From positions 1 to 64,000 of the forward strand of contig DASWRM010000029.1 in the NCBI GenBank assembly GCA_036403155.1: DNA of 64,000 nt, read 5' to 3'. The notes under the pieces are model-generated. The model saw only the letters and a program-made list of their open reading frames with translations, made no database searches and was not told the DNA's origin. Below are positions 7,489 through 22,933 of the stretch, piece by piece. Numbering within the stretch: the first letter of the stretch is position 1; each line of letters opens with the position of its first letter. A program made the translations under genes and the position numbers. Origin of the DNA: Gaiellales bacterium. Lineage in GTDB: Bacteria > Actinomycetota > Thermoleophilia > Gaiellales > JAICJC01.

Positions 7489-8208
7489 TCAGGGCAGCTC
7501 CGCCGTCACCAGCCGCCGCGACGCGGCGGCGACGGCGATCGCTGCGACGGCCGCCAGGATCACGGCTGACGCCACGGTGCCGGCGACCGGCTTCGCCGCC
7601 TGCGGCAGGGCGTGAGCGACGAACGCCCGCCCGTAGGCCGAGATCGAGAGCTTCGCCGCGGACGCGGCGAACGTGGCGATCGAGCCCTCCCAGAGCAGGA
7701 TGTACATGATGCCGATCACGACCGGCCTCCGGGTCATCAGCGACAGCCATGACGAGACGGCGCAGTAGGCCAGGCCGGACAGGATGACGCCCAGCAGCGG
7801 CCATGCGATCAGGCGCACGCTCGCCTGCCCACCGAGCGCGAGCAGGCCGGACAGCACCAGGCTGGGTACGAGCAGGACGAGCGTTGCCGTCCACGCGGCC
7901 GCCACCTTCGCGACCACCAGTTCGACCCGTGGCTGCGGCGTCGCGACCAGGTAGAGGATCGTCCCGTCCTCCCGCTCGTCGCCGAACGCGGACACGCCGA
8001 AGACCAGGGCGACCAGCGCGGCAACGGTGGGGACGAACAGCTGCTGGACGATCGTCGAGTAGAAGTCGTGCCTATCCGCGCCCGGGTCTCGCGCAAGCGC
8101 AAAGATCAACGAGGTCAGCACGGGAGCGAGCGCGATCAGCGCGAGCATCAGCGTCCGCTTCTGCACGAGCAGCGCGCGCACCGTCAGCCGGTAGATCGGC
8201 CCGATCAT
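7489..8208 (-). CDS. ABC transporter permease (ABC-2 type), second pair
   Basis: This 239-residue integral membrane protein has about six hydrophobic helices. The first helix follows a short cytosolic N-terminus (RLTVRALLVQKRTLMLALIA). The loop SAFGDEREDGTILYLVATPQPR is the classic ABC-2 permease segment between helices 2 and 3, seen in NosY- and Gld-type permeases. Its start overlaps the stop of the upstream ATPase (ATGA), so the pair is coupled. It is the last gene of a five-gene operon and presumably forms the membrane pore worked by the ATPase at 8205-9143. Substrate unknown. Confidence 0.85.
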   Translation of the reverse strand: MIGPIYRLTVRALLVQKRTLMLALIALAPVLTSLIFALARDPGADRHDFYSTIVQQLFVPTVAALVALVFGVSAFGDEREDGTILYLVATPQPRVELVVAKVAAAWTATLVLLVPSLVLSGLLALGGQASVRLIAWPLLGVILSGLAYCAVSSWLSLMTRRPVVIGIMYILLWEGSIATFAASAAKLSISAYGRAFVAHALPQAAKPVAGTVASAVILAAVAAIAVAAASRRLVTAELP

Positions 8209-9143
8209 CGCGCCTGTCCCCGCGCCCGCTCGTGGAGGTACGTGTAGACGCTCTCGAGGTCGTCGCCGACCGGCCGCACCTCGTGCAGCAGCGCCTCCGC
8301 GCGCACGGCCGCCACCGGCAGCTGGCGCGAGAGCCCGGACGGATCGCTCGTTTCGATCTCGACGCGCCCGTCGGCCAGCCGGACGGCATCGACCGCCGGC
8401 GTGGCGAGCAGCTCCCGCGCCAGCGCCCGGCTGTTGCCGTCGGCCGTCACCAGCACGCGCCGGGGCCGTTCGCTGATCAGGCGACGGATGCCGGCCGTCG
8501 AGCCCTCGGCCACGAGGTGGCCGTTCACGAGCACCAGAACGCGCGGCGCCATCCGCTCCACCTCGTGCAGCACGTGTGACGACACGAGCACCGTCCGGCC
8601 CTCGGTGCCGAGGCGGGTGAGGAGGTCGATCACGTGCTCGCGCTGGGTCGGATCAAGGCCGTTCAGCGGCTCGTCCAGCAGCAGCAGGTCGGGATCGTGC
8701 GCGAGCGCCTGGGCGAGCTTCACACGCTGGCGCATGCCGTGCGAGAAGCCGCCGACGGGCCGGTGTGCCTCGTCCGCGAGCTCCACGGTGGCGAGCGCAT
8801 GCTCCGCCGCCGCACGCGGATCGTCGACGCGGTGCAGCCGCGCGGACAGCTCGACCACCTCCCGGGCGGACAGGAACGGCCAGGGCGGGCTGTGGTCGGG
8901 GACCATCCCGAGCCGCCGGTACACGTCGGGCGATCGCCGTGGGTTCACGCCGAAGATGCGGACGCTTCCGGTGCTGGGCGTGGAGAAGCCGGCGCAGAGC
9001 TTCAGCGTCGTCGACTTCCCGGCGCCGTTGTGCCCGAGCAGGCCGACCACGCCGCCGTCGATGGTGAACGTCACGTCGGCGATGGACACGGTATCGCCGT
9101 ACCAGCGCGACACGCCGCTGAACTCGATCGCGGGCTGGCTCAC
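8205..9143 (-). CDS. ABC transporter ATP-binding protein, second pair
   Basis: This 312-residue protein has an N-terminal ABC nucleotide-binding domain: Walker A GHNGAGKST at about 37-45, signature FSHGMRQRVKLAQAL, Walker B LLLLDEPLNGLDP and switch His in VLVSSHVLHE. A C-terminal extension of about 90 residues, similar to DrrA/CcmA-type exporters, follows. The GTG start at 9143 is chosen because it overlaps the stop of the preceding permease in GTGA and sits just before the conserved fold. Coupled on both sides with permeases, it powers an ABC-2 exporter or remodeling system. Confidence 0.92.
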   Translation of the reverse strand: MSQPAIEFSGVSRWYGDTVSIADVTFTIDGGVVGLLGHNGAGKSTTLKLCAGFSTPSTGSVRIFGVNPRRSPDVYRRLGMVPDHSPPWPFLSAREVVELSARLHRVDDPRAAAEHALATVELADEAHRPVGGFSHGMRQRVKLAQALAHDPDLLLLDEPLNGLDPTQREHVIDLLTRLGTEGRTVLVSSHVLHEVERMAPRVLVLVNGHLVAEGSTAGIRRLISERPRRVLVTADGNSRALARELLATPAVDAVRLADGRVEIETSDPSGLSRQLPVAAVRAEALLHEVRPVGDDLESVYTYLHERARGQAR

Positions 9144-10009
9144 GCCTGCTCCCGCCCGTATCGCACGAGCAGCACGACCAGCGCGAGGACGGACACCTCG
9201 ACGGCGACCGACCCCCACACCCACGGGCCGATGTGGTTGCGGTCGGCGTAGCCCGGGAACAGCCCCTGGCCCGCCCGGACAGGGGCGGCGGCGAAGGCGA
9301 GCAGCCGCAGGTGCGGCGAGCCGAGCGCCTCGCCCAGCGTGCCGCCGACCACCGTCGGGATGGCGAGGAATGCCAGGTAGCCGCCGACGGCGAACGCGCG
9401 CCTGCCGGTCAGCGACGAGATGGCGAGCCCGACCACCGCATAGAACGTGGCGACGATCAGCCCCGATCCGATGATCCGGAGCAGGTCGCGGTCATGGTGC
9501 AGCAGGTATCCGAGCGGGTGCACCGAGAACAGCACCGTGCCGGCGTACAGCGTGAGCACCGGTGCCAGCGTGACGAGCAGGAGCGGCATCATTGCGGCGA
9601 TCAGCTTGCCGGCGAGGTAGTCGAACCGGCCAAGAGCGGTGGAGAAGTAGAGCGAGAGCGTGCGGTCGCGACGGTCCGCGCACACCAGCTCGGGCGTGAT
9701 GACGACGCTGAAGACGAGCACGACGATCGACACGGTGCTGACGTACGCGCTGTACGGCAGGGCGTCCACCACGCTGCGTGTCACCGACGACGAGCCGAAC
9801 AGCGCTCGCAGCCCGAGGATCACGAGGGCCGGCGCGAACGCGAGCAGCACGAGCGCGATCGGAATCACCTTCACCTTCCACCCTCTCCGTGCTCCCATCG
9901 CGCGCAATGCGCTCCAGCGTGCGAGCGACCAGATCGCGGCTGCGCGGCCCGCGCGCGGGCCGTCGTAGCGCGTGAACGCGCTGTCGACGAGGCGGGCGTC
10001 GGCGCTCAT
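9140..10009 (-). CDS. ABC transporter permease (ABC-2 type), first pair
   Basis: This 289-residue membrane protein has about six helices and an ABC-2 type layout. After a 50-residue cytosolic N-terminus comes VIPIALVLLAFAPALVILGL. The loop TPELVCADRRDRTLSLYFSTALGRFDYLAGKL matches the typical conserved loop before helix 3. The ATG at 10009 overlaps the upstream ATPase stop in ATGA; longer versions in the same frame run back into the ATPase and are rejected. It pairs with the ATPase at 10006-10923. The substrate is unknown, but the LolA-like gene at the head of the operon hints at lipid or envelope work. Confidence 0.85.
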   Translation of the reverse strand: MSADARLVDSAFTRYDGPRAGRAAAIWSLARWSALRAMGARRGWKVKVIPIALVLLAFAPALVILGLRALFGSSSVTRSVVDALPYSAYVSTVSIVVLVFSVVITPELVCADRRDRTLSLYFSTALGRFDYLAGKLIAAMMPLLLVTLAPVLTLYAGTVLFSVHPLGYLLHHDRDLLRIIGSGLIVATFYAVVGLAISSLTGRRAFAVGGYLAFLAIPTVVGGTLGEALGSPHLRLLAFAAAPVRAGQGLFPGYADRNHIGPWVWGSVAVEVSVLALVVLLVRYGREQA

Positions 10010-10923
10010 CCGATCGCTCCGATCAGCGATTGCTCGAGCGTCGGGCCGGCGGGCCGCAGCTCCCGCAGGCCGACGTCCGCGCTGCATGCCGCGTCGCGAA
10101 CCCCACGCAGCACCGCCTCGACGTTCGCGCCCCGCACCACCAGCCAGCCGTCCTGCGGCTCGACCAGCAGGCCGAGTCGTGTCGCCTCGGCCGTGAACCG
10201 GCCCGCGTCGCCGTCGATGCGCACCTGCACGTCACCCGCCCGCTCCTCGTCCGGCGCGGCGAGCTTCCGCGTCGCCGCCACGCGCCCCTCCCGCATGACG
10301 ATCACCGAGTCGCACGTGCGCACCACGTCCTCGAGCACATGGGACGACATGACGACGGCGATGCCAAGCTCGCTGGACAGGCGCCGCACCAGCGCCAGCA
10401 TCTCTTCGCGGCCGGCCGGGTCGAGCCCGTTGGTGGGCTCGTCGAGGATCACGAGGCTGGGGGAGTGGACGATCGCCTGCGCCAGGTTCGTCCGCTGTTT
10501 CATCCCGACGGAGAACGTTCTGATCAGCCGCGAGCGCTCCTCCTCGAGGCCGACCTGGAACAGCACCTCCGACGCCCGCAGCACCGCCACCCGTCGGGGC
10601 AGACCGCGCAGCTCTCCCATGTGAACGACCAGGTCGCGTGCGGTCATCCCCATGGGAAGCGCGCTGTGCTCGGGCATGTACCCGAGCCGTCTGCGGATAT
10701 CCCACGACCGCCCGAGACCCATGCCCATCACGTTGACGGTGCCCTCGTCCGGCCGGATGAGGCCAAGGATCGTCCGCATGAGCGTCGACTTGCCGGCCCC
10801 GTTCGCGCCGAGCAGGCCCACGGCGCGGTCCTCGATGCGCGCGCTGACGCCGTCGAGCGCCACGACCGATCCGTAGCGCTTGACGACGTTGTCGACCTCG
10901 ACCAGCGCGCCGCCGGTGCTCAT
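10006..10923 (-). CDS. ABC transporter ATP-binding protein, first pair
   Basis: This 305-residue ABC ATPase has Walker A GANGAGKST (39-47), signature FSVGMKQRTNLAQAI, Walker B LVILDEPTNGLDP and switch region VVMSSHVLEDV. The C-terminal extension resembles that of gliding/NatA-type exporters. ATG 10923 gives the normal N-terminus (MSTGGALVEVDNVVKRYG); the 24 codons before it are not conserved-looking. It lies 22 bases after the LolA-like gene and overlaps the permease by 4 bases. It drives the first ABC-2 permease of this double system. Confidence 0.92.
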   Translation of the reverse strand: MSTGGALVEVDNVVKRYGSVVALDGVSARIEDRAVGLLGANGAGKSTLMRTILGLIRPDEGTVNVMGMGLGRSWDIRRRLGYMPEHSALPMGMTARDLVVHMGELRGLPRRVAVLRASEVLFQVGLEEERSRLIRTFSVGMKQRTNLAQAIVHSPSLVILDEPTNGLDPAGREEMLALVRRLSSELGIAVVMSSHVLEDVVRTCDSVIVMREGRVAATRKLAAPDEERAGDVQVRIDGDAGRFTAEATRLGLLVEPQDGWLVVRGANVEAVLRGVRDAACSADVGLRELRPAGPTLEQSLIGAIG

Positions 10924-10945
10924 GACCGCGGTCTGGCGCCGCGGA

Positions 10946-12103
10946 TCACGACAGGGCGCGGGCCACGGCGATGATCGTGGAGGGCTGCCGGGCACCGAGC
11001 ACCACGAACTCCGTGCCTCCCCGCCTGAAGCTGACGATCGTGCCGAGCGTGGTCACGAGCTGGCTGCCCCGCGCGCCGTTGATCCGAATCGAGGGGAAGA
11101 GCGAGCCGTCGCTGCGGGCGGCCGCCTCACCGGATGCCTGCCGCTCGATCACCACCACCGAGCCGAGGCCGCGGCCGTAGACCGCGAGCAGCCCCCTCGC
11201 GCCGGAGCGGGAGAACGAGCGTGCAACCGTGCGCGGGAGGCCCGCTGCCGTGGCCGGCGCGGCCGCGGAGGGCGGCGCAGCCGAGCTGTGCCCGTCGCTG
11301 CGAGCGTTGTCCACAGCGTGGCGGAGCTCCGCCCTGGTCGGCAGCTCGACCGCGGTCACGTGCGTCCCGGCCGGCATCCGCACGGCGGTATCGCCGGCGG
11401 CGAGCTTGCCGTAGCGGATGTGCGTGACCTGCAGCTCGATGGCCGGCTGCGACGCCCCGCGCGGGTAGAGCGCAACGCGAAGCGGCGTGCCGTGCGCAGC
11501 GTCCCAGGCGAGGGCGAGCGGGCCGATCAGGCCGGAATCGTGGCGGGCGCTGATGCGGACCGTGTAGGCGGGGCGTCCGGCGACGTTGCCGGGCACTGCG
11601 CCGGAGATGTCCAGTGTGCGGCCGAGCTCGGAGAGCGTGCGGCGGATATCGGCGAGCGACGGTGGCGATCCGTGATTGCGGCTCGCTGTATCGCCGCCGT
11701 GATGCGGCACGGCCACCCGGTAGGCGGCGTGACGGTTCGGCGCGTAGAGCGTGACCGCCCGGCCGTCGAACCCGGCCTCGATCCTGCCGAGCTGCGAGCG
11801 CACCACGAGCCGCACCCGGTCGCCGCTCGCCCAGATGGTGCCGTGAGCGCCGCCGAGGAGGGCGCCGTCGAGAAGGGACGAGGCTCCAGGGATGAGGTGC
11901 TGGGAGATCGTGAACTGCGCACGCACGCCGCTCACATCCTTGGCCGTGAGCGCGTTGTGGATGGCGACCGCGAGCGGCCGCTTCGGCGGGCGTTCGCTGC
12001 TGCGGGTGAGCGCGTACGCGGTCACCGTGAGGGCGGCCGCCATCACCGCGGCGAGCGCGAGCCACCCGCCCAGCCGTGCCGTCGATCGTCGTGCCATACC
12101 CAT
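10946..12103 (-). CDS. LolA/RseB-like lipoprotein-carrier-fold protein, membrane-anchored
   Basis: This 385-residue protein has an N-terminal signal anchor (LGGWLALAAVMAAALTVTAYAL, about 11-32) and an extracytoplasmic body that looks like the LolA/RseB-type beta-barrel half-fold: IHNALTAKDVSGVRAQFTISQHLI, then repeated strands such as GTIWASGDRVRLVVR and PAYTVRISAR. It ends with a domain containing VVVIERQASG and GTIVSFRRGGTEFVVLGARQ. ATG 12103 or ATG 12097 both fit. As the first gene of an operon with two ABC ATPase/permease pairs, it may sense or carry a lipophilic ligand for them. The fold call is from pattern and context, not a database match. Confidence 0.65.
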   Translation of the reverse strand: MGMARRSTARLGGWLALAAVMAAALTVTAYALTRSSERPPKRPLAVAIHNALTAKDVSGVRAQFTISQHLIPGASSLLDGALLGGAHGTIWASGDRVRLVVRSQLGRIEAGFDGRAVTLYAPNRHAAYRVAVPHHGGDTASRNHGSPPSLADIRRTLSELGRTLDISGAVPGNVAGRPAYTVRISARHDSGLIGPLALAWDAAHGTPLRVALYPRGASQPAIELQVTHIRYGKLAAGDTAVRMPAGTHVTAVELPTRAELRHAVDNARSDGHSSAAPPSAAAPATAAGLPRTVARSFSRSGARGLLAVYGRGLGSVVVIERQASGEAAARSDGSLFPSIRINGARGSQLVTTLGTIVSFRRGGTEFVVLGARQPSTIIAVARALS

Positions 12104-12727: not shown

Positions 12728-12869
12728 GACCGTCCGGCCGAAGGGCCTTTCGAGCCACCGATCCTCCACCGCAGCGCCGGCTGCGTGCATCCGAACGGTC
12801 GTGCTACCTCCACGCGCGCCGGGGGATGGCACCAGTGCCGGCGGCACCGTCATGGATGATTGTTGCACC

Positions 12870-13769
12870 ATGACTGTCAGTGCCGCCATATCGGTGCGGG
12901 GCCTCGAGATGGCCTACGGCGCCGTTCGGGCTGTCCAGGGGATCGACCTGGAGGTGCAGCGCGGCGAGATCTTCGCGTTCCTCGGCCCAAACGGAGCGGG
13001 GAAGACGACCACCCTCGAGATCCTCGAGGGCTACCGACGCCCCACGGCCGGCAGCGTCGCCGTGCTGGGTCAGGACCCGTGGAACGCGGACGGAGGGTGG
13101 CGTGCGCGGATCGGGGTCGTGCTTCAGGAGTCGGAGCCCGATCCCGGCCTGACGGTGTCGGAGGCCGTTGCGCTGTACGCCGGATACCACGCCCGGCCGC
13201 TCGGCGTATCGGAAACGCTGCAGCTCGTGGGGCTCGAGGGCGAGCGGGACATGCTCGCAACCACGCTGTCGGGCGGCCAGCGTCGCAGGCTGGACGTCGG
13301 GCTGGCGCTGGTCGGCCGGCCGGAGGTGGTGTTCCTCGACGAGCCGACGACCGGCTTCGACCCGGCTGCACGGCGGGCAGCCTGGGCGATGATCGAGGGG
13401 CTGCGAGCGACCGGAACGACGGTCTTCCTGACGACGCATGCGATGGACGAGGCGGCCCATCTCGCCGACCGGATCGCGGTGCTCGCCGGCGGCCGCGTGA
13501 TCGCAGAGGGAACCCCGGCCACGATCGGGGGTCGCGATACGGCTGCCAGCATCGTGTCCTTCGTCGCCGACCTGCCGGCGCTGCCGGAACGATTTCGCGA
13601 TCGAGCCCAGCTCGTCGGCGGAAAGGTGCAGTTCGAAAGCACCAGCCCGCTTGCAGACCTCGCGGAGCTTGCCGCCAACGGCGTCGCCGTCTCCGATCTC
13701 GAGGTGCGGCCGCCGTCGCTCGAGGACGTCTACCTCTCGCTCACCCGCGGCCCGGTCGGCGTCTCGTGA
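12870..13769 (+). CDS. ABC exporter ATP-binding protein, DrrA-like
   Basis: This 299-residue ABC ATPase has Walker A GPNGAGKTT (39-47), Q-loop VVLQESEPDPGLTV, signature LSGGQRRRLDVGLAL, Walker B VVFLDEPTTGFDP and switch His FLTTHAMDEA. The C-terminal domain resembles DrrA-type exporters. ATG 12870 is preferred because the domain begins directly after it; ATG 12852 (adding MDDCCT) is an alternative. The stop overlaps the GTG of the permease in GTGA. Together they should export a small lipophilic compound or antibiotic-like molecule; the neighbours give no substrate. Confidence 0.9.
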   Translation: MTVSAAISVRGLEMAYGAVRAVQGIDLEVQRGEIFAFLGPNGAGKTTTLEILEGYRRPTAGSVAVLGQDPWNADGGWRARIGVVLQESEPDPGLTVSEAVALYAGYHARPLGVSETLQLVGLEGERDMLATTLSGGQRRRLDVGLALVGRPEVVFLDEPTTGFDPAARRAAWAMIEGLRATGTTVFLTTHAMDEAAHLADRIAVLAGGRVIAEGTPATIGGRDTAASIVSFVADLPALPERFRDRAQLVGGKVQFESTSPLADLAELAANGVAVSDLEVRPPSLEDVYLSLTRGPVGVS

Positions 13770-14551
13770 CCCGGCGTCCCTACACCCTGCTGGTGCACCA
13801 GACCGAGTACGACCTGCGCGCCTTCCGCCGCAATCGGCAGGCATGCCTCGGCACGATCCTGCTGCCGTTGCTGCTGCTCGTGGTGATCGTCAGTGCCAAT
13901 GGCGGGGACACCGTCCCGTACCATCATGCGCGAGTATCCCTGGCGGAGTACATCACTCCCGGGCTGGCAGCGTTCGGCGTCGTTGCCGCGTCCTTCCTGA
14001 GCCTGATCGTCGAGGTGGTGACGCAGCGCGAGACCGGCGTCCTCAAGCGCCGGCGGGCGACGCCGGTGCCGGCGTGGGTCCTGATCGGCGGCCGCACCCT
14101 GACGGCCGCGGTCGCTTCACTCGCCGTGATGTTCCTGCTACTTGTCGTGGCAGGCAACAGCTACAACGCGACCATCCCCAGCGCCGGCCTCCCGGCGGCG
14201 GTGCTCGCCGTGGCGATCGGTGCGGCCAGCTTCGCGAGCATCGGGTTCGCGGTATCGACGGCCGTCCGCAACGCCGCCGCCGCGCAGCCGGTCGCGTCCC
14301 TGATCCTGCTGCCGCTGCTGCTGATCTCGAGCGTGCTGGTTCCGACGACGCAGCTGCCCGACTCGCTGGCGACCATTGCTTCCCTGTTCCCGCTCGAACA
14401 TCTTGCCGACGCCCTCCGGTACGCGCTCGATCCGTCGGTGGGCGGCTCGCACGTCGCCGCCGAAGACCTCGCCGTCGTGTCGGCGTGGGGTGTGGCGGGG
14501 TTCGTGGTGGCGTACCGCCGCTTCGCCTGGCTGCCCGCGGTCTCTGGCTGA
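13766..14551 (+). CDS. ABC-2 type permease, DrrB-like
   Basis: This 261-residue permease has about six helices: FRRNRQACLGTILLPLLLLVVI at the start, then the ABC-2 block VVTQRETGVLKRRRATPVPAWVLIGGRTL, LILLPLLLISSVLVPTTQLPDSL and the closing helix before AYRRFAWLP. The GTG start overlaps the ATPase stop. The end is in keeping with the family, so I take 14551 as genuine even though a methyltransferase frame on the other strand runs into this gene. It is the membrane half of the exporter. Confidence 0.88.
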   Translation: MTRRPYTLLVHQTEYDLRAFRRNRQACLGTILLPLLLLVVIVSANGGDTVPYHHARVSLAEYITPGLAAFGVVAASFLSLIVEVVTQRETGVLKRRRATPVPAWVLIGGRTLTAAVASLAVMFLLLVVAGNSYNATIPSAGLPAAVLAVAIGAASFASIGFAVSTAVRNAAAAQPVASLILLPLLLISSVLVPTTQLPDSLATIASLFPLEHLADALRYALDPSVGGSHVAAEDLAVVSAWGVAGFVVAYRRFAWLPAVSG

Positions 14552-15336
14552 CCGCATTCCGAAGCCGCTGCCGGAACCCCCTTCTCCGCCACGACGGCGA
14601 TCTTCCGCACGCGTCCCGTCTCGAGCCATGCGCTCCACAGGTGGTGCGCGCGGAGCAGATCGTCGAGCGCGCGGCGGCCGACGCGCGACGCGATCGCCGG
14701 CGCGTCATCGGCGAACGCGTCGTGGAGCGCCTCCGCCACGGCGCGATGCTGGTCGGTGTGATCGTCCTCCCAGCACACGGTCAGGCCGGCGTCGCCGAGC
14801 AGTTCCCGTACCTCCTCCAGCGGCGTCAGCCACACCGTGTCGGCGTCTGGCATCGCGTTGCGCTCCCCGTCGCCGAGCGGCGCGCCGGCCTCGAGCGTGA
14901 AGGCGAACCGTCCGCCCACTGCCAGCGTGCGTCCGATCTCCCTGACCAGCGTCCGCTTGTCCGGGAAGGCGAGCATCGTCTCGAGCAGCAGAACGACGTC
15001 GAACGGGCCCGGCGGAAGCGGCGGCACCCGTGCCACCTCGAAGCGGCAGTCCAGCCCGTGTGCGCGGGCGCGCGCGATGTCGATCGCGCTCGCGCTGGAG
15101 TCGACTCCCAGGTAGCTGCAGCCGAGCGCGCGCGTGATGAAGCGTCCGGGTCCCGCCACGCCGCAGCAGACGTCCAGCACCGAGACGCCCGGCGCGACGC
15201 CGGCCCGCTCCGCGAGATCGCGGATCTCGCCGGCGCGCATGAAGCCCTCCTGCTCCACGTACTCGCCCGCCGGGTACGCGCGCTCGCGGGCGCGCCGCAG
15301 CGCCTCCACGAAGCCGTGGCGCTCGTCCTGCTTCAC
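14161..15336 (-). CDS. Class I SAM-dependent methyltransferase with overrunning 3' end
   Basis: This is a SAM methyltransferase with motif I SVLDVCCGVAGPGRF, acidic LGVDSSASAIDIA, and FDVVLLLETMLAFPD. The homologous-looking part ends near base 14590 (VRKIAVVAEKG), but no stop follows in this frame until 14161, deep inside the permease on the other strand. None of the three - frames has a stop near 14540-14600, so a simple frameshift does not restore a normal end. The protein may carry a junk tail of about 140 residues, or the stop was lost by mutation or assembly error. The GTG start at 15336 (VKQDERHGFVEAL) is a judgement. Substrate unknown. Confidence 0.7.
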   Translation of the reverse strand: MKQDERHGFVEALRRARERAYPAGEYVEQEGFMRAGEIRDLAERAGVAPGVSVLDVCCGVAGPGRFITRALGCSYLGVDSSASAIDIARARAHGLDCRFEVARVPPLPPGPFDVVLLLETMLAFPDKRTLVREIGRTLAVGGRFAFTLEAGAPLGDGERNAMPDADTVWLTPLEEVRELLGDAGLTVCWEDDHTDQHRAVAEALHDAFADDAPAIASRVGRRALDDLLRAHHLWSAWLETGRVRKIAVVAEKGVPAAASECGQPETAGSQAKRRYATTNPATPHADTTARSSAATCEPPTDGSSAYRRASARCSSGNREAMVASESGSCVVGTSTLEISSSGSRIRDATGCAAAALRTAVDTANPMLAKLAAPIATASTAAGRPALGMVAL

Positions 15337-15434
15337 GGTTGAACGACACCCATGCGATCGGCCATCGTGTACCCCGTCCAGCTGTGGATCGTCGACGTGA
15401 ACCGGACGAGGGGCTGCAGAGTAGTGCCGTGAGG

Positions 15435-17825
15435 ATGGATGAGTGGGGACGCATGCTGCGGGCGGCTCACCGCGCTCCGCTGGTCGCGCTCGCCGCGCAG
15501 CCGGTGCTGCTCGCCGCCCTGACCGCGACGGCCGGCCTCGGCCCCGCCGGTTGGGGCGTCGGCCTCGCATGCGGGGTGGGCGGCGGCGTGCTGTTCGCCC
15601 GCGCGCTGCGTCGCCACGGCACGGTGCGGCTCGGCCCGGCGGGGTGGCTCACCCTCGCCCGCGCCACGCTCGCCGCCGGCGTGGCGGCGCTTGCGGCCGA
15701 GACGCTCGCCGGAGCGGGCTCGACGACCGCGCTGGTGGCTCTGGCAGCCGTCGCGCTGGCGCTCGACTACGTCGACGGGCGCGTCGCGCGGCGCACGGGG
15801 ACGGTGTCGGAGCTGGGCGGCCGGCTGGACGGCGAGGTCGACGCCTTCCTGATTGCCGCGCTGGCGGTCGACGTCGCGCCGAAGGTGGGAGCGTGGGTGC
15901 TCGCGATCGGGGCGGCGCGGTATGCGTTCCTCGCCGCAGGGTGGACGGTCGAATGGATGCGAGCGCCGCTGCCGCGGCGAGACTGGCGAAAGCGCGTCAC
16001 CGCCGCGCAGGGCCTCACCCTGACGGCGGCCGCGGCCAGCGTCGTGCCGGTGGCCGCGATTCGCGTCGCCCTTGCCGCCGCGCTGCTGCTCCTGGCCGAG
16101 TCGTTCGGCCGCGACGTCTGGTGGCTCTGGCGCCACCGCGATGCGCCGGGCCCCGCCGCTGCTCCCGCCGACCGTCCGTCGACGCCCGCCGTGCTCGCTG
16201 GCGGCTCGGGCGGCGGACGCACGCGGGCGCGCATCCAGACCGCCCTCACCGTCCTGGCATTCCTGGCCGTGTGGCTCGTCCTCGTCGCGCCGAACCAGCC
16301 GAGCAGGCTGTCGCCCGAGGCGTTCATCCGCCTTCCCATCGAGGGCGTCGTCGTCGTGGCCCTGGCCGTGGCCCTTCCGGTCAGGGCACGGCGCGCGCTG
16401 GCCGCCGTCGTGGGGCCGCTGCTCGGCCTGCTCGTATTCGTGAAGCTGCTCGACATCGGCTTCTTCATGGCGTTCGACCGGCCGTTCAATCCGACCGACG
16501 ACTGGCGGTACACGCGCATCGGCATCGAGACGCTGCACGAGTCGGTCGGCCGCACGACGGGCAACGTGGCGCTGGCCGGCGTCGTGGCGCTGCTCGCGCT
16601 GGGCCTTGCGCTGCCGACGCTCGCCGTGTTCCGCGTGACCGGCGCCGCTGCGGGCCACCGCCGGACGTCGCTGCGCGCGGTCGGGGTGCTGGCCCTCGCA
16701 TGGGTGGTCTGCTGGACGTCGGGACTGCACCTGCTTGCCGGCGAGCCGATCGCGTCCACCAGTGCCGCCGAGCTGGCCGTCCGCGAGGTGCGCGCAGTCA
16801 AGCTGGGCCTGGAGGATCGGGCTCGCTTTGCGGCGCAGATCCGCCGCGACCGGTATCGCGGCGCTCCGGGTGCCCGGCTGCTGACCGCGCTGCGCGGCAA
16901 GGACGTCCTGCTCGTCTTCGTCGAGAGCTACGGCAAGGTCGCGGTGGAGGGATCGTCCTTCTCCCCCGGGGTGGACGCCGTGCTCGACGCGGGAACGAGT
17001 CAGCTGCGGGCCGCCGGCTTCTCGTCCAGGAGCGGCTGGCTGACGTCGCCCACGTTCGGCGGGATCAGCTGGCTGGCCCACTCCACCATGGAGGCCGGGG
17101 TCTGGGTCAACACGCAGGGGCGCTACGACCAGCTCGTCGCCAGCCGTCGGGTGACCCTGAGCGACGCCTTCGGGCGAGCCGGTTGGCGCACCGTCGGCGA
17201 CGTGCCGTCCGACAACCGCCACTGGCCCGAGGGCACGGGCTTCTACCACTACGACAGGGTCTACGATCGCCGCGACGTCGGCTACCGGGGCCCGACCTAT
17301 GCATACGCCTCGATGCCGGATCAGTACGTGTACCTCGCCCTGCAGCGCCTCGAGCTCGCCCGCCGCGATCGCCCGCCCGTGTTCGCCGAGGTCGACCTGG
17401 TATCCAGCCACGAGCCGTGGACGCAGATCCCGCCGCTGATCCCCTGGAGTGAGGTGGGCGACGGCTCGGTCTTCTACCGGCTCCCGGTCGACATGACGGG
17501 GAACGGCGACACCAAGGCGGCGTACGGCAGGTCGATCCAGTACACGCTGAGCACGCTCTTCTCCTTCGTCCGGCACTACGGCCGCCGGAACCTCGTGATG
17601 GTCGTGCTCGGAGACCACCAGCCGGCGGCCATCGTCAGCGGCGAGGGCGCGAGCCACCAGGTGCCGATCTCGGTGATCGCGCACGATCCGTCCGTCATAG
17701 CGCGCATCTCCGGCTGGGGGTGGGTGGACGGCATGCGACCCGATTCGAAGGCGCCGGTGTGGCCGATGAGCGCGTTTCGCGACCGCTTCCTGACGGCGTT
17801 CGGGCCGCGCCCCGGGTCGCCGTAG
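15435..17825 (+). CDS. CDP-alcohol phosphotransferase fused to LtaS-like sulfatase domain
   Basis: This 796-residue membrane protein has two enzyme modules. The N-terminal part carries a complete CDP-alcohol phosphotransferase signature, D111, D114-G115, A118-R119, G128, D132 and D136 (DYVDGRVAR then GGRLDGEVD). Several helices follow. From about residue 480 an alkaline-phosphatase/sulfatase domain like lipoteichoic-acid synthase begins: LLVFVESYGKV, SPTFGGISW, DLVSSHEPW and VVLGDHQPAA. The start is uncertain (15429 GTG, 15435 ATG or 15453 ATG). Its stop is 8 bases from that of the convergent RibD-like gene. It probably makes or transfers a phospho-alcohol group on a membrane lipid or glycan. 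Confidence 0.85.
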   Translation: MDEWGRMLRAAHRAPLVALAAQPVLLAALTATAGLGPAGWGVGLACGVGGGVLFARALRRHGTVRLGPAGWLTLARATLAAGVAALAAETLAGAGSTTALVALAAVALALDYVDGRVARRTGTVSELGGRLDGEVDAFLIAALAVDVAPKVGAWVLAIGAARYAFLAAGWTVEWMRAPLPRRDWRKRVTAAQGLTLTAAAASVVPVAAIRVALAAALLLLAESFGRDVWWLWRHRDAPGPAAAPADRPSTPAVLAGGSGGGRTRARIQTALTVLAFLAVWLVLVAPNQPSRLSPEAFIRLPIEGVVVVALAVALPVRARRALAAVVGPLLGLLVFVKLLDIGFFMAFDRPFNPTDDWRYTRIGIETLHESVGRTTGNVALAGVVALLALGLALPTLAVFRVTGAAAGHRRTSLRAVGVLALAWVVCWTSGLHLLAGEPIASTSAAELAVREVRAVKLGLEDRARFAAQIRRDRYRGAPGARLLTALRGKDVLLVFVESYGKVAVEGSSFSPGVDAVLDAGTSQLRAAGFSSRSGWLTSPTFGGISWLAHSTMEAGVWVNTQGRYDQLVASRRVTLSDAFGRAGWRTVGDVPSDNRHWPEGTGFYHYDRVYDRRDVGYRGPTYAYASMPDQYVYLALQRLELARRDRPPVFAEVDLVSSHEPWTQIPPLIPWSEVGDGSVFYRLPVDMTGNGDTKAAYGRSIQYTLSTLFSFVRHYGRRNLVMVVLGDHQPAAIVSGEGASHQVPISVIAHDPSVIARISGWGWVDGMRPDSKAPVWPMSAFRDRFLTAFGPRPGSP

Positions 17826-17833
17826 CCGGCGGC

Positions 17834-18523
17834 TCAGGCGGGCTGGTAGCGGTCCGAGAGGGCATAGCGCAGCAGCACGACGTCGCCGATCTGCCGCACG
17901 TCGGCGAGCGTTGCCCGCCGGCCCGGGTTCCAGGGGAAGCAACCGTCCTGCACGAACCTGGGTGCGTCGGAGTCGCCGACGAACACCGGCGCCACGACCA
18001 GCTGCAGCTCGTCGGCCAAGTCCTCGGCGAGGAACTGCGTGTGCACCTCACCGCCGCCCTCGACCATCAGCCGCGCCACGCCGCGCGCCGCGAGGTCGTC
18101 GCTGACGGCCGTCATCGCGACCGGATGTCCGCCGTCGACCACGGTGGCGACCGATCCGAGTCGCGTGCGCGCCTCGGCCACCCGTGGGCTCGGGCAGTAG
18201 ACGAGCTTCTCCGCGTCGCCCGTCGTGAAGAAGCTCGCGGCGGCGTCCAGTGCCACGCGCCGGGTCACCGTCACCTTCGTCGGTGACGGCGGCTGTCCGC
18301 CCACCGTCCGCGCATGGCGGCGCGCCTGCGAGCGGACGAGCAGCCGCGGGTCGTCGATCCGTACTGTGGCGGCGCCCACGAGGATGGCATCGCAGCTGGC
18401 GCGGACGGCGTCGACGCGGTCGAAATCAGCGTCGTTGGACAGGAGCAGCCGCGACGCCGGGCCGCCGATGTAGCCGTCGATCGACATGCTGCAGCTGAGC
18501 ACGGTGTACGGGCGGTCAGACAC
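17834..18523 (-). CDS. RibD C-terminal/dihydrofolate-reductase-fold reductase
   Basis: This 229-residue protein is of the RibD reductase-domain family, which uses NADPH to reduce ribosylaminopyrimidines or related rings. Typical features are LSCSMSIDGYIGG, SCDAILVGAATVRIDDPRL, and LMVEGGGEVHTQFL with the glycine-rich NADPH loop. The deaminase half of RibD is missing. The GTG at 18523 fits the family N-terminus (VSDRPYTVLSCSMSIDG) and overlaps the preceding gene by 8 bases. It is the last gene of the six-gene cluster, so it probably reduces an intermediate of the cluster product. Confidence 0.88.
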   Translation of the reverse strand: MSDRPYTVLSCSMSIDGYIGGPASRLLLSNDADFDRVDAVRASCDAILVGAATVRIDDPRLLVRSQARRHARTVGGQPPSPTKVTVTRRVALDAAASFFTTGDAEKLVYCPSPRVAEARTRLGSVATVVDGGHPVAMTAVSDDLAARGVARLMVEGGGEVHTQFLAEDLADELQLVVAPVFVGDSDAPRFVQDGCFPWNPGRRATLADVRQIGDVVLLRYALSDRYQPA

Positions 18524-19604
18524 GCCTCGCCCCGTGCTGGTGAGTCGCCACCGCGACCCGGCATTCGGCGGCGGGCATCGGCCGGCGGCGTGAGGAACCA
18601 CGGCGGAGCCATGCGCCGGCGAGGAGCAGGCCGCCCGGAAGGCTCGCAACCAGCACCATGACACCGTATGCGACGGCGGTGGAGACGCCCAGCCCCGCCC
18701 CCAGGCCCGCCGACCCGAAGACCCAGGCCGCCGCTCCTTCCCGCGGGCCCCAGCCGCCGAGGCTGGGCACGACCATCGCCAGCATGGCGAGCAGGGCCAG
18801 CGGCAGCACGCGCGAGGCCGGCGCGCTGGCGCCCGCCGTTCGCGCCGCGATCGCGAACGTCGTCGCGTGTCCGAGGACGACGGCCGACGAGGCGATCGCC
18901 ATCGGCGCCAGCGACCTGCGGGCCAGCACCCCGGCCCGCAGGTCGCCCGCGATGACGCGACGGACGTGCCCAGGCCGCCTCCGGCGCACGAGCAGGATGC
19001 CGAGGGCCGCGACGGCGACGCCGGCCACCACCACCGGCATGGACGAGCGCGCAGGAGACGGCAGTGCGAGCAGGACCAGCACGGTGAGCGCGAGCTGGAC
19101 GGCCTGGCCGATCCCGCGCTCCCATGCGACGGCCCTCAGCGCCCGGCCCATGTTCTTCGCCTCGCGGCCGTGCGTGACGCCGCGGTGAATGTCGCCCACC
19201 ACTCCACCGGGCAGCGTCAAGTTGAGGAACAGCGACCGGTAGTACGCTGCGACCGCGGCGGGGAGCGAGATGTGGATGTCGAGCGCGCGGGCGACGACCG
19301 TCCACCGCCAGGCGCAGCAGACCGTGGTGACGGCCCCGATCAGCGTCGCGGCGGCCAACGCGCCGGCGTCCACGGCCCGAAGGCCGTCGAGGAAGGGTCC
19401 GCCGCCGAGGCGCCAGACCACGATGACGAGCACCGCGGCGGCGCTCGCCGGCCGCGCCCACCTCCACATCATCGTGCGGATGGGGTTTTCGACATGCTCC
19501 AGATTGCCTCGCTCCGTGTCGGGTCGGCCGGCGAGCGCCGAGGGGCCACGTCTGGCAGTACGGGGCGCACGGCCGCTCGGTTCTGCACGCACGGCGGGTG
19601 TCAC
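18516..19604 (-). CDS. Flippase-like integral membrane protein (LPG synthase TM/UPF0104)
   Basis: This 362-residue membrane protein has about seven to eight helices and the landmarks of the lysylphosphatidylglycerol-synthase transmembrane family: CCAWRWTVVARAL, YYRSLFLNLTLPGGVVGDIHRG and ERGIGQAVQLALTVLVLLAL, and MVVPSLGGWGPREGAAAWVF near the end. Family members are flippases or lipid-handling partners (the MprF N-half, AglD-type). The GTG start overlaps the methyltransferase stop in GTGA. In this cluster it may move a lipid-linked product across the membrane. No soluble lysyltransferase domain is attached. Confidence 0.85.
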   Translation of the reverse strand: MTPAVRAEPSGRAPRTARRGPSALAGRPDTERGNLEHVENPIRTMMWRWARPASAAAVLVIVVWRLGGGPFLDGLRAVDAGALAAATLIGAVTTVCCAWRWTVVARALDIHISLPAAVAAYYRSLFLNLTLPGGVVGDIHRGVTHGREAKNMGRALRAVAWERGIGQAVQLALTVLVLLALPSPARSSMPVVVAGVAVAALGILLVRRRRPGHVRRVIAGDLRAGVLARRSLAPMAIASSAVVLGHATTFAIAARTAGASAPASRVLPLALLAMLAMVVPSLGGWGPREGAAAWVFGSAGLGAGLGVSTAVAYGVMVLVASLPGGLLLAGAWLRRGSSRRRPMPAAECRVAVATHQHGARRV

Positions 19605-20422
19605 GGAAGCACGAGCAGGTCGGCATGACCCACGGTCGCTGCGAGCTGTCCGGTCCGCACCTGGTGGAGGCGGTCACGGACATACCCCTCGATCTCTGCC
19701 GCCAGCTCGGGCTCGTGCTCGCAGGCGGCATCTGCCCAGCCCGTGAACCACGCCTCCGTCAGGGACGCATCGGCCCCGCCCAGCCGCCACGGGCTGGGGC
19801 GGACGAGCACGTCGGCGCCACCCCGGCGAAACCGCGCGGCGGCGGTTGCCGGCGCATCGGGGCCGAGCAGGCGGCCGCCCGGCGTCACGCGGCGCTGATG
19901 GGCGTCGAACGCGCACGCGACCCGGGCGTCGAGCGGGTGGCCGGGCGTCAACCCGACGTCCCCGGTGACAGACAGCGTGAGCAGCACCGGGCATCCCGCC
20001 GCGGCGCACAGGTCGACGACGGCCGCCAGCTCCGCCGCGGTCAGCAGGTCGAGCACTGCCGATGCGGTGATCAGCGTGGCGCGGGCAACGTCGTTTGGCT
20101 CCAGCCGGGTGATGTCCGACCGCCGCGGCTCGACGTCGACGCGACCCCCGTCCGCGGACACCTGCGGCACCGCCCCGGCCGCCACGCCCAGGAGATGCTC
20201 GTCACGGTCGTGGATCACCCACCGCTGCGGCCCCGGCAGGTGCGGCGCAAGCCACCGCGTCATGGCGCCCGTCCCGCAGGCGAGGTCGTGGACGATCCAC
20301 GGGCCCGTGTCTGCGGCGTGTCGCAGAAGCGCGCTGACGAGATCCGTGGACCGTGCGGCCGCGTCGGCGCCCTCGCGAAGCCTCAGCCATTCGGGCGCCA
20401 CACGGATCGCCTCGACGGTCAC
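19601..20422 (-). CDS. SAM-dependent methyltransferase of the PTPS-like cluster
   Basis: This 273-residue class I methyltransferase has motif I WIVHDLACGTGAMTRWLAPHL, then VIHDRDEHLL with the acidic residue for the SAM ribose, and VLDLLTAAELAAVVDLC. A conserved-looking C-terminal part includes GADVLVRPSPWRLG and AWFTGWADAA. The GTG at 20422 overlaps the glycosyltransferase stop in GTGA; the frame is open upstream but would invade that gene. It is coupled on both sides and presumably methylates the cluster's small molecule or sugar. Confidence 0.88.
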   Translation of the reverse strand: MTVEAIRVAPEWLRLREGADAAARSTDLVSALLRHAADTGPWIVHDLACGTGAMTRWLAPHLPGPQRWVIHDRDEHLLGVAAGAVPQVSADGGRVDVEPRRSDITRLEPNDVARATLITASAVLDLLTAAELAAVVDLCAAAGCPVLLTLSVTGDVGLTPGHPLDARVACAFDAHQRRVTPGGRLLGPDAPATAAARFRRGGADVLVRPSPWRLGGADASLTEAWFTGWADAACEHEPELAAEIEGYVRDRLHQVRTGQLAATVGHADLLVLP

Positions 20423-21477
20423 CGCGCCGCTCCTTCGAGCGCACCGGCGATCAGAGACGTGGTGGTCGACCATCCCGGGAGGGTGGAGCGCCGTCGTGCG
20501 GCGGCCCGCCGCAGCCCGCGGCGCAGGTCGTCATCCGTGAGCCACGCCCGCAGCTGCGCGGCCAGCGCGCGCGCGTCGTCCGGTGGCACGAGCAGCCCGG
20601 GCCGCGTCCCGTCCGCCGCCCGGCCGAGCGCCTCTGGTATGCCGCCGACGTCGGTGGCCACCACCGGCAGGCCCCGGGCGAGCGCCTCGGTGACGACCAT
20701 GCCGTACGTCTCGCCGCGGGACGCGAGCACGAGCACGTCTGCGGCCGCGTACATCCGGTGGAGCTCGGCCCGCGGCACCGCTCCCTCGAAGCGGATGCGG
20801 CCGGCGAGTCCGGCGGCGGACATGCGGCGGCGGAGCGATTCCGCGAACCCGGGATCGCGGTCGACGGTGCCGGCGCACACGCACTCCCACCCGATCTCTG
20901 CGATGCCGGCGAGCGCGTCGACCAGCACGTCGTGGCCCTTGCCGGGGATCACGGCCGCGACGCAGAGCAGCGCACCGCCGGTCGCCGTCCCGGGTGCGAT
21001 CTCTGCGGCATCGACTCCGGGCTCCGCGACGTGCACCCGCTCGGCGGGCAGGCCGTGGAGGTCGAGCAGCACGCTTCGCGCCCAGTGGCTCGTCGTCACG
21101 ATGCGGGCGGCGGCGGACAGCACGGCGCCCTCCCCGCCCGCCGTGTCGGCATCCGCCGCTCCCTGGCCAAGCGGCATGTGGACGAGCACGACCAGGCGCA
21201 AGCGCCTCGACTCCGGCAGCACGACGTGCGGCGCCGGCGAGGCGACCAGCCCGTCCACCAGGACGATGTCCGCGTCGGGGATCGCGCCGAGCACCGCGGC
21301 GAGCGCCGCCAGCGAAACCGTGTCCGTCCGTGGCCATGAGCCGGGCACCGCATGGACGTGCACCGGCCGGCCCAGGGACTCCAGCCCGCGGATCACGCGG
21401 CTGTCGTAGAGGTTGCCGCCACTCGGCCGGGCCGGATCGTCGATGCCGTCCGGGACGACGGCGTGGAGTGGCGTCAC
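20419..21477 (-). CDS. GT4-type glycosyltransferase of the PTPS-like cluster
   Basis: This 352-residue GT-B fold retaining glycosyltransferase has acceptor half [17 protein letters not shown] and [12 protein letters not shown], and donor half [56 protein letters not shown] with the conserved E-x7-E. No signal peptide. The GTG start overlaps the PTPS-like gene's stop in GTGA. It likely transfers a sugar from a nucleotide donor onto the product made by the surrounding enzymes; donor and acceptor cannot be read from sequence. Confidence 0.92.
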
Positions 21478-21872
21478 AGCGCTCGCTCGTAGCCGGCCCA
21501 GGCGACGTGCGACTCGTGCAGCGTTACGACCAGCGCGTCGAGGGTCTGTGCGGTCTCCCCGAGATCCCCGGCTCGAATGCGTTCGGCGAGCCGGTCGGCG
21601 ATCACCCGCGCGAGTTGTTCGGTCGTCGTATTGAGGGCCGCCAACTCCGGTTCGTCGTCGAGGTTCCGGTAGTCCAGATCGGCGAGCACCGCGCGTAGCG
21701 CGTCGGACGCGCGGCCGATGTCGACCACCACCCCGTCGGCGTCGAGCTCTGCCCGGCGGAACGTCGCGTCGATCACGTACGTGGCGCCGTGGAGGCGCTG
21801 GGCCGGCCCGAACGCCGCCCCGCGGAGGCTGTGGGCGATCATCATGTGATCGCGCACGGTGACGCTGAACAT
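21474..21872 (-). CDS. Degenerate 6-pyruvoyltetrahydropterin synthase (T-fold) paralogue
   Basis: This 132-residue T-fold protein resembles PTPS/QueD. In canonical enzymes zinc is held by three His (A-H and the HGH pair), and catalysis uses a Cys four residues before HGH plus a His in LDH. Here H14 and H28 are kept, but HGH is HGA (A30), the Cys is A24, and LDH is LDY (Y68). The substrate-anchoring Glu is present in [13 protein letters not shown] (E120). The fold probably still binds a pterin- or purine-like ring, while the normal reaction looks impossible. Start ATG 21872 gives the family length. It is five bases from the dehydrogenase and overlaps the glycosyltransferase. Confidence 0.87.
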
Positions 21873-21877
21873 CCCGG

Positions 21878-22933
21878 CTACCCCTCTCCGTAGACGATCG
21901 AGTGGCAGAGCCCGGGCAGGTCGTCCGATGCCAGACGCGCCATCACGTCGGGCAGGTCGTCGAACCGCGACTCTCCGGTGAGGACCGAGTCGAAGGCCGG
22001 ATCCCGCAACAGGTCGAGCGCGAGGGCGAGCCGCGCTGCAGCGCTGCGACGCGGCCGGCGCGACGGGGCGACCATCCCCACCTGGCTCGATCGTATGGCC
22101 AGGCGCCTGGAGTGGAACGCCCCGCCCAGCGACAGCTGGACCTCCGCGTTGCCGTACCAGCTGAGGTCGATCACGGCACCCTCCGTCCCGAGCATCTCGA
22201 TCGACCGCTGGAGCCCGGCGCCGGTGGCGCTCGTGTGCACGACCAGGTCCAGGTCCCCCGGCGCGTCGCCTGGGAGGGCGAAGGCCGCGCCGAGCGCCCC
22301 GGCCACCTCCGCCCGCTGCTCGTCGACATCGACCACGGTCACCTCCACCGCGGGGAGCCGGCTGAGCAGTCGCGCGACGCAGCAGCCCACCATCCCCCCG
22401 CCGACGACCGCGACGCGGTCCCCCACCAGCGGGCCCGCGTCCCACAACGCGTTGACTGCGGTCTCCACCGTCCCGGCCAGCACGGCGCGGGCCGGGGGCA
22501 CCTCATCCGGTACGACGACGACCGCGTCCGCGGGCACGACGTAGGCGGTCTGGTGGGGGTGCAGGCAGAACACGGTGCGGCCGCGCAGCGCCGCGGAGCC
22601 CTGCTCGACCTGGCCAACGCTCAGGTAGCCGTACTTGACAGGGCCGGGGAACTCGCCGTCCTGGAACGGCGCCCGCATCGCGGCGTGCTGATCCGGCGGC
22701 ACACCTCCGCGGAACACGAGCGCCTCTGTGCCGCGGCTGACCGCCGAGCGCAGGGCTCGCACGAGGACGTCGTCAGGCCCGGGCGCGGCCAGCGTGGCTG
22801 ACCGGATCTCGCCTTGGCCGGGCGCGCGCACCCAGAACGCGCGTGCGACCCGTTCGTTGCTTCCCCCAGCGGTGGAGGCACGGTTCGCGTCCTGCATCGG
22901 CGGTGAGTCGACCACCGGCTGAGGATAGGGCAC
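21878..22933 (-). CDS. Medium-chain dehydrogenase/reductase, zinc-alcohol-dehydrogenase-like
   Basis: This 351-residue MDR-superfamily oxidoreductase has a GroES-like N-half ([38 protein letters not shown]) and a Rossmann half with [20 protein letters not shown]. The catalytic-zinc Cys of true alcohol dehydrogenases is not visible at the usual place (SAVSRGTE instead of CGTD-like), nor is a structural-zinc four-Cys lobe. It may therefore be a zinc-free reductase. It is the first gene of the six-gene operon. Start ATG 22897 (MQDANRAS) is an alternative. It probably oxidises or reduces a cluster intermediate. Confidence 0.88.

Follow-up and report, generated by a model that had tools for sequence, protein, structure and literature searches.

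The locus described here lies closest to two known families of membrane phosphotransferases and to a gene cluster that is known in part. The CDP-alcohol phosphatidyltransferases (PF01066) include PgsA, PIP synthase and the choline/ethanolaminephosphotransferases. In the bifunctional AF2299 (PDB 4o6m), a CDP-alcohol phosphotransferase (CDP-AP) is joined to a second domain, a presumably cytosolic one that is nucleotidyltransferase-like. The other family is that of LtaS and the lipoteichoic acid (LTA) primase LtaP; the LtaS layout presumably comprises five membrane helices before the catalytic domain. For LtaS of Listeria, the active-site description in PMC4192460 assigns Glu263, Thr307, Asp481 and His482 to the metal site, and His353, Trp360, Arg362 and His422 to the phosphate site. 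The cluster is named here after SCO6650, for which a structure has been deposited (3d7j). We know of no product of the SCO6650 cluster. A table row in PMC2853524 gives SCO6655, a number close to SCO6650, as GTP cyclohydrolase II, and a table row in PMC3610822 gives SCO6652 as a hypothetical protein. With both domain families already known and the SCO6650 cluster known in part, it is the domain architecture that is new; searches of a limited library of CC-licensed literature returned no report of it, and no title or abstract in that library dealt with this fusion or with the product of the SCO6650 cluster.

In the window, by which we mean the whole 64,000-nucleotide stretch of DNA analysed, the gene under study is organized as follows.

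15435 to 17825, plus strand: fused gene for a CDP-alcohol phosphotransferase plus an LtaP/LtaS-like domain, 796 aa in a single open frame, with full-length single-frame relatives
15645 to 16076, plus strand: CDP-alcohol phosphotransferase core, aa 71-214, by PF01066 and by profile A2 against the PDB
15765 to 15842, plus strand: CDP-AP signature D..DG..AR(8)G...D...D, aa 111-136, a motif in the chain
16140 to 16232, plus strand: short, variable, basic linker, probably cytosolic, aa 236-266, by an 11-row alignment and charge count
16233 to 16736, plus strand: five predicted membrane helices toward the outer face, aa 267-434, by hydropathy and charge
16872 to 17822, plus strand: LtaP/LtaS-like catalytic domain, aa 480-796, by profile A1 against PDB 4uop and Foldseek of a poor model

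The frame runs from an ATG at 15435 to a stop at 17825 on the plus strand, with no interruption. An earlier note on this DNA had seen a complete DG..AR..G...D...D signature and four further motifs in one chain, and all of them are in place: the signature reads DYVDGRVARRTGTVSELGGRLDGEVD (aa 111-136), and VESYGK (496-501), SPTFGGISW (538-546), DLVSSHEPW (654-662) and GDHQP (726-730) follow in the same 796-aa protein. The fused protein that the note proposed is real, a CDP-alcohol phosphotransferase joined to a domain of LtaS/LtaP type, as judged from the single frame, the homology of the halves to both families and the single-frame relatives. A frameshift joining two genes was looked for and none was found, the window gene being one open frame.

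With E 1e-15 as the limit, 12 of 299 genomes in the class have a match to the fused gene. Ten of these matches are full length and in a single frame; in the other two genomes, G004 and G626, the match is confined to the C-half, on a short frame where the contig ends. In other genomes, the identity is 54-69% along the whole chain, again in one frame. Altogether there are 11 full-length fusions, 10 in Thermoleophilia-class genomes and one in a Burkholderiaceae MAG (locus L003); locus L002 and genome G001, apparently the same contig (51,655 bases in both) with the same match, were counted once. The halves also occur apart. In G262, another actinobacterium, two neighbouring genes on the same strand encode them, arranged as in the fusion and inside the same cluster. 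In six genomes of a single genus (G083, G187, G220, G240, G251 and G390), Streptomyces-like in size and gene content, the C-half is far off or on another contig. These separate genes could speak for an error of assembly or a frameshift that had joined two genes, but 11 full-length single-frame fusions from separate genomes, which form one tree group, rule out such an artefact, and the probability we give it is next to nil. When 22 C-halves, 12 of them fused and 10 separate, were placed in a tree, the fused rows made up one side of a 100/100 branch, a topology that is consistent with a single fusion event without proving one.

The N-half is recognized directly. The Pfam domain search suggested in the earlier note gives CDP-OH_P_transf (PF01066) at E 4.7e-11 and 43.7 bits, against a cut-off of 22, and in the PDB the N-half profile A2 finds cholinephosphotransferases (1.9e-4), a phosphatidylserine synthase (7.9e-4) and AF2299 (0.0055). 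Of the 11 full-length fusions, 10 have the whole CDP-AP signature; in the eleventh (L064) the spacer is one residue shorter. Structure prediction, with three sequences as input, gave poor models (mean pLDDT 42.7 for the whole protein and 38.3 for the C-domain). The top Foldseek matches of the low-confidence whole-protein model are PgsA1 and PGP synthase, weak at E 0.067 and above, and an NCBIfam scan found no equivalog above cut-off for the fusion protein.

Hydropathy of the N-half indicates six clear segments, and the poor model suggests eight helices. Basic charge is found in the linker and in the loops placed inside. Since an even number of helices is followed by five, the CDP-AP site would lie inside and the C-domain outside. 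This prediction from hydropathy and charge agrees with the outer-face location that the earlier note had assumed for the second activity, and the two sites are probably on opposite faces of the membrane.

The C-half is more diverged. The earlier note had spoken of a sulfatase/LtaS-like domain, and a Pfam search for Sulfatase (PF00884) bears out this assignment for relatives only: neither the window protein at E 0.01 nor its C-half at E 1 is matched, and 11 of 17 C-halves are, at E up to 1 (best 1.1e-8). When ten relatives were scanned one by one, PF00884 matched five, including three of the seven that are fused, and L044 alone passed the family cut-off (27.5 bits vs. 25). The window C-half being too diverged for Pfam alone, it is recognized via its relatives. 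Profile A1, built from the 17 C-halves, has a single match in the PDB, LtaP (4uop, E 2.1e-5); a phmmer search of the PDB with the single window protein gave no match at E 0.01, and an NCBIfam scan of the C-halves yielded nothing relatable. In the Foldseek search with the low-confidence C-domain model, 3lxq of the alkaline-phosphatase superfamily (E 2.7e-4) and LtaP (4uop, 6.9e-4) lead, which lends weak support, and sulfatases are also among the matches. In hhalign against E. coli OpgB, a weak test with a single sequence, the probability was 0.3 of 100.

The alignment to LtaP places the following residues in the putative active site (LtaS_Lm is LtaS of Listeria).

16923 to 16925, plus strand: Glu497, metal ligand by alignment to LtaP, equivalent to LtaS_Lm Glu263
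17052 to 17054, plus strand: Thr540, proposed nucleophile, aligned with the Thr of LtaP SNTADAE
17409 to 17411, plus strand: His659, equivalent to LtaS_Lm His422, invariant in A1 and aligned to LtaP SSHMPF
17613 to 17618, plus strand: Asp727-His728, metal ligands by alignment, equivalent to LtaS_Lm Asp481-His482, invariant in A1 and aligned to LtaP GDH

The alignment of Asp727-His728 to LtaP GDH comes from another segment of the match to LtaP, a weak one worth 6 bits. The Thr in LtaP SNTADAE is taken as the catalytic Thr-279 because of its likeness to the LtaS peptide GKTADSE given in PMC4192460. The loss of the metal site in the C-terminal half, a concern of the earlier note, was looked for by alignment, and no metal residue is missing. 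Moreover, all 12 fused C-halves examined (G626 was left out) retain the metal residues and a Thr at the position of Thr540, and Ser545 is invariant across the 17-row alignment. Three of 10 stand-alone C-halves have Ile or Val in place of Thr540. These are paralogues, L045 9303-10946, L050 8779-10416 and L052 8934-10577, in which the Glu, His and Asp-His motifs are kept.

The name of PF00884 and the sulfatases among the fold matches of the poor model could be taken to mean that the C-half is a sulfatase in the strict sense. Sulfatases that depend on formylglycine carry the motif Cys/Ser-x-Pro-x-Arg. The nucleophile position reads LTSPTFGGISW in the window protein, and neither there nor in the relatives is the formylglycine motif present, so we rejected this assignment as very improbable.

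His353 and Arg362 of LtaS have no clear counterpart, the profile alignment being gapped in this part, in which Trp597 is conserved. Without clear counterparts of these two residues, the substrate need not be glycerol phosphate. That the acceptor-site residues cannot be recognized would also suit a phosphodiesterase or phosphatase that hydrolyses the phosphodiester lipid of the N-half outside and thereby releases the product; the alkaline-phosphatase superfamily does include hydrolases, and the fold matches of the poor model include both 3lxq, from that superfamily, and sulfatases. Set against this, the one sequence match of profile A1 in the PDB is a transferase, and the domain is preceded by five predicted membrane helices, presumably as in LtaS. 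We regard a hydrolase as improbable, with a small chance of being correct.

The genes around the fusion are listed below; those from the RibD_C-type reductase to the BchC-like dehydrogenase lie downstream of it on the opposite strand.

14577 to 15270, minus strand: methyltransferase MT1, conserved part, divergent from the fusion (Methyltransf_25)
17834 to 18664, minus strand: RibD_C-type pyrimidine reductase (PF01872; TIGR01508 below cut-off; PDB 5xv5 and 6p8c among the matches)
18516 to 19604, minus strand: LPG_synthase_TM flippase-like membrane protein (PF03706)
19601 to 20473, minus strand: methyltransferase-like protein MT2 (Methyltransf_25, 26.9 bits with a cut-off of 27)
20419 to 21477, minus strand: GT4 glycosyltransferase (PF00534)
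21474 to 21872, minus strand: PTPS homologue, orthologue of SCO6650 (PF01242; 3d7j, E 8.1e-56; QueD comparison)
21878 to 22933, minus strand: alcohol-dehydrogenase-superfamily protein, BchC-like (ADH_zinc_N and TIGR01202 bchC, both below cut-off)

The window thus has the make-up of an SCO6650-type cluster, an SCO6650-like PTPS together with GT4, dehydrogenase, flippase and CDP-AP. Compared with E. coli QueD, the PTPS homologue retains LHG and a Glu close to its C-terminus; LHGA replaces LHGH, LDYR replaces LDHH, and the KCG Cys has no aligned residue. The residues that differ are presumably zinc and catalytic residues of QueD, and the homologue looks inactive. Similarity links the reductase to 2,5-diamino-6-ribosylamino-pyrimidinone phosphate reductases (the family TIGR01508, at a score below its cut-off, and the structures 5xv5, which is presumably archaeal, and 6p8c).

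MT1 adjoins the fusion in the window and in nine other full-length loci of the class (L002, L058, L059, L060, L063, L064, L065, L066 and L067) and was not found in L003. The MT1 frame of the window (14161-15570, minus strand) extends about 400 bases beyond the conserved end at about 14577, into a convergent frame whose end is at 14551; the MT1 frame of L058, L059 and L060 stops shortly past the conserved end. Upstream of the cluster, 8205-10995 and 12801-14551 hold frames that, from their translations, are ABC-transporter-like and similar to each other. A GTP cyclohydrolase II gene adjoins the fusion in 5 of the 11 full-length loci (L060, L063, L065, L066 and L067) and is also found beside the fusion or reductase in L044 and within the L046-L048 clusters. 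In its place, L002/L057, L058, L059, L061 and L064 have an Acyl_transf_3 gene, called by Pfam on the L058 copy and by similarity on the others. Neither gene stands beside the fusion in the window or in L003. GTP cyclohydrolase II is absent from the window, and the best match in its own genome is a 465-aa frame on contig C65, at 49%. For L063-L067, about 5 kb each were covered and hence part of the cluster only.

The earlier note had likened the protein to a one-protein route to a teichoic-acid-like or phospholipid modification. The teichoic-acid part of this reading finds no backing: of ten proteins of the region that were scanned, not one attains the threshold for any teichoic-acid family, and the similarity of the GT4 to TuaC and to an LTA glycolipid GT is far below their cut-offs. 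We rejected a teichoic-acid route, for which there are no supporting genes; the cluster carries pyrimidine/pterin-type genes instead, which the earlier note leaves unmentioned.

Across genomes, the fusion goes with the SCO6650-type PTPS. In the class (299 genomes), the fusion occurs in 12, the PTPS in 13 and both in 12 (Fisher p 1.5e-20), that is, the PTPS is present in 12 of 12 fusion genomes and in 1 of 287 others, and the match in this thirteenth PTPS genome (G659) covers 50 residues. In a phylum sample of 396 genomes, the N-half occurs in 10, the PTPS in 10 and both in 9 (p 1.7e-16) at a threshold of E 1e-20; G303 has only a weak, partial N-half, and G088 only a partial PTPS. The C-half, with at most two candidates scored per genome, was found in 8 of the 396 genomes, all 8 with the PTPS (p 3e-15), and in six of these eight it is located elsewhere. 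G068 has the N-half and the PTPS, with no C-half among the two candidates scored. All these p-values ignore relatedness.

Positions 10001-17545 of L003, on the contig of a Burkholderiaceae MAG, hold an SCO6650-type cluster with the fused gene. Its G+C content is 0.60-0.67, compared with 0.56-0.62 in the surrounding genes, which include DUF2501, GTP-type PEPCK and gamma-glutamyltranspeptidase. The reductase and flippase genes are separated by a cytochrome c gene, and MT2 was not found in this cluster. The simplest reading is that the block moved to another phylum; mis-binning or mis-assembly may be an alternative.

Collectively, we tentatively propose, with somewhat less than even confidence, that the fusion is a bifunctional membrane-spanning phosphotransferase of an SCO6650-type cluster, which would act in lipid attachment inside and then in transfer or release at the outer face. 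The domain families, the conserved catalytic residues and the pathway membership are supported; the topology, the substrates, the donor, the acceptor, the order of steps and the relay itself we infer. The cytosolic N-terminal CDP-AP site would use a CDP-activated donor to join an alcohol to a lipid phosphate. The alcohol would most likely be a ribityl- or pterin-like, possibly glycosylated, product of the neighbouring genes. From the gene content of the cluster, an alcohol of ribityl-pyrimidine or pterin-like type may be expected, with glycosylation, methylation and sometimes acylation. The product would then be flipped, perhaps by the neighbouring LPG_synthase_TM protein, and the outer LtaP/LtaS-like site, with one metal ion and Thr540 as the nucleophile, would pass the phospho-group on, either to an acceptor on the outside or to water.

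It is also possible, if on the unlikely side, that the two domains are tethered partners with no relay between them, both active in the same pathway on different substrates. As an example, the N-half could provide a lipid anchor and the C-half could move the glycerol phosphate of phosphatidylglycerol, in the manner of LtaP, onto an exported glycosylated product. The nearest solved relative of the C-half, LtaP, is a GroP transferase, and the halves sit at separate loci in the Streptomyces-like genomes, both of which would suit such an arrangement. As the halves are not neighbours in the six Streptomyces-like genomes, their coupling is not required there. In contrast, the gene order in G262, which the fusion shares, and the short linker suggest consecutive steps, this being the easiest way to understand them, though no proof.

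Extending the proposed inside-to-outside phosphotransferase to its product, the cluster may make a membrane lipid or an envelope polymer that bears a ribityl-pyrimidine or pterin-type glycoside as its headgroup. In two steps, the fusion would attach the polyol, derived from a nucleobase, to a lipid phosphate inside and hand the phospho-headgroup to an outer acceptor. We consider this extension doubtful; if true, it would mean a new class of bacterial envelope phosphodiester and a product for the SCO6650 cluster. Because the fusion, the gene order and the co-occurrence tie two membrane phosphotransferases to the cluster, a membrane or cell-surface product is indicated rather than a soluble pterin, and the SCO6650 cluster is pointed toward a compound of that kind.

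How the fusion relates to the known systems can be stated for each. With the CDP-alcohol phosphatidyltransferases it shares the signature and a Pfam match above cut-off; it differs by additional membrane helices at the N-terminus and by a predicted outer-face domain at the C-terminus. As in AF2299, a CDP-AP is joined to a second domain, but the partner in the window is a predicted outer-face phosphotransferase. LtaP and LtaS (PDB 4uop and 4uor), as described in PMC4192460, likewise have an alkaline-phosphatase-type domain after membrane helices. The Glu and Asp-His ligands, the Thr position and the equivalent of His422 are all kept in the fusion; in the window, however, the domain is fused to a CDP-AP, equivalents of His353 and Arg362 were not recognized, and the setting is a pterin/pyrimidine-type cluster rather than LTA synthesis. 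Archaeal riboflavin synthesis uses a creatininase-family deformylase, and a creatininase-family gene lies inside a Streptomyces-like cluster (L046 14851-15669, minus strand), which would fit a formylated pyrimidine intermediate. The SCO6650-type clusters of the Streptomyces-like L046-L048 differ from the window in carrying GTP cyclohydrolase II and in having the LtaS-like partner elsewhere, and neither the RibD-type reductase nor MT1 was found in them; PTPS (the SCO6650 homologue, 3d7j), GT4, dehydrogenase, MT2, flippase and CDP-AP are common to the window and the L046-L048 clusters.
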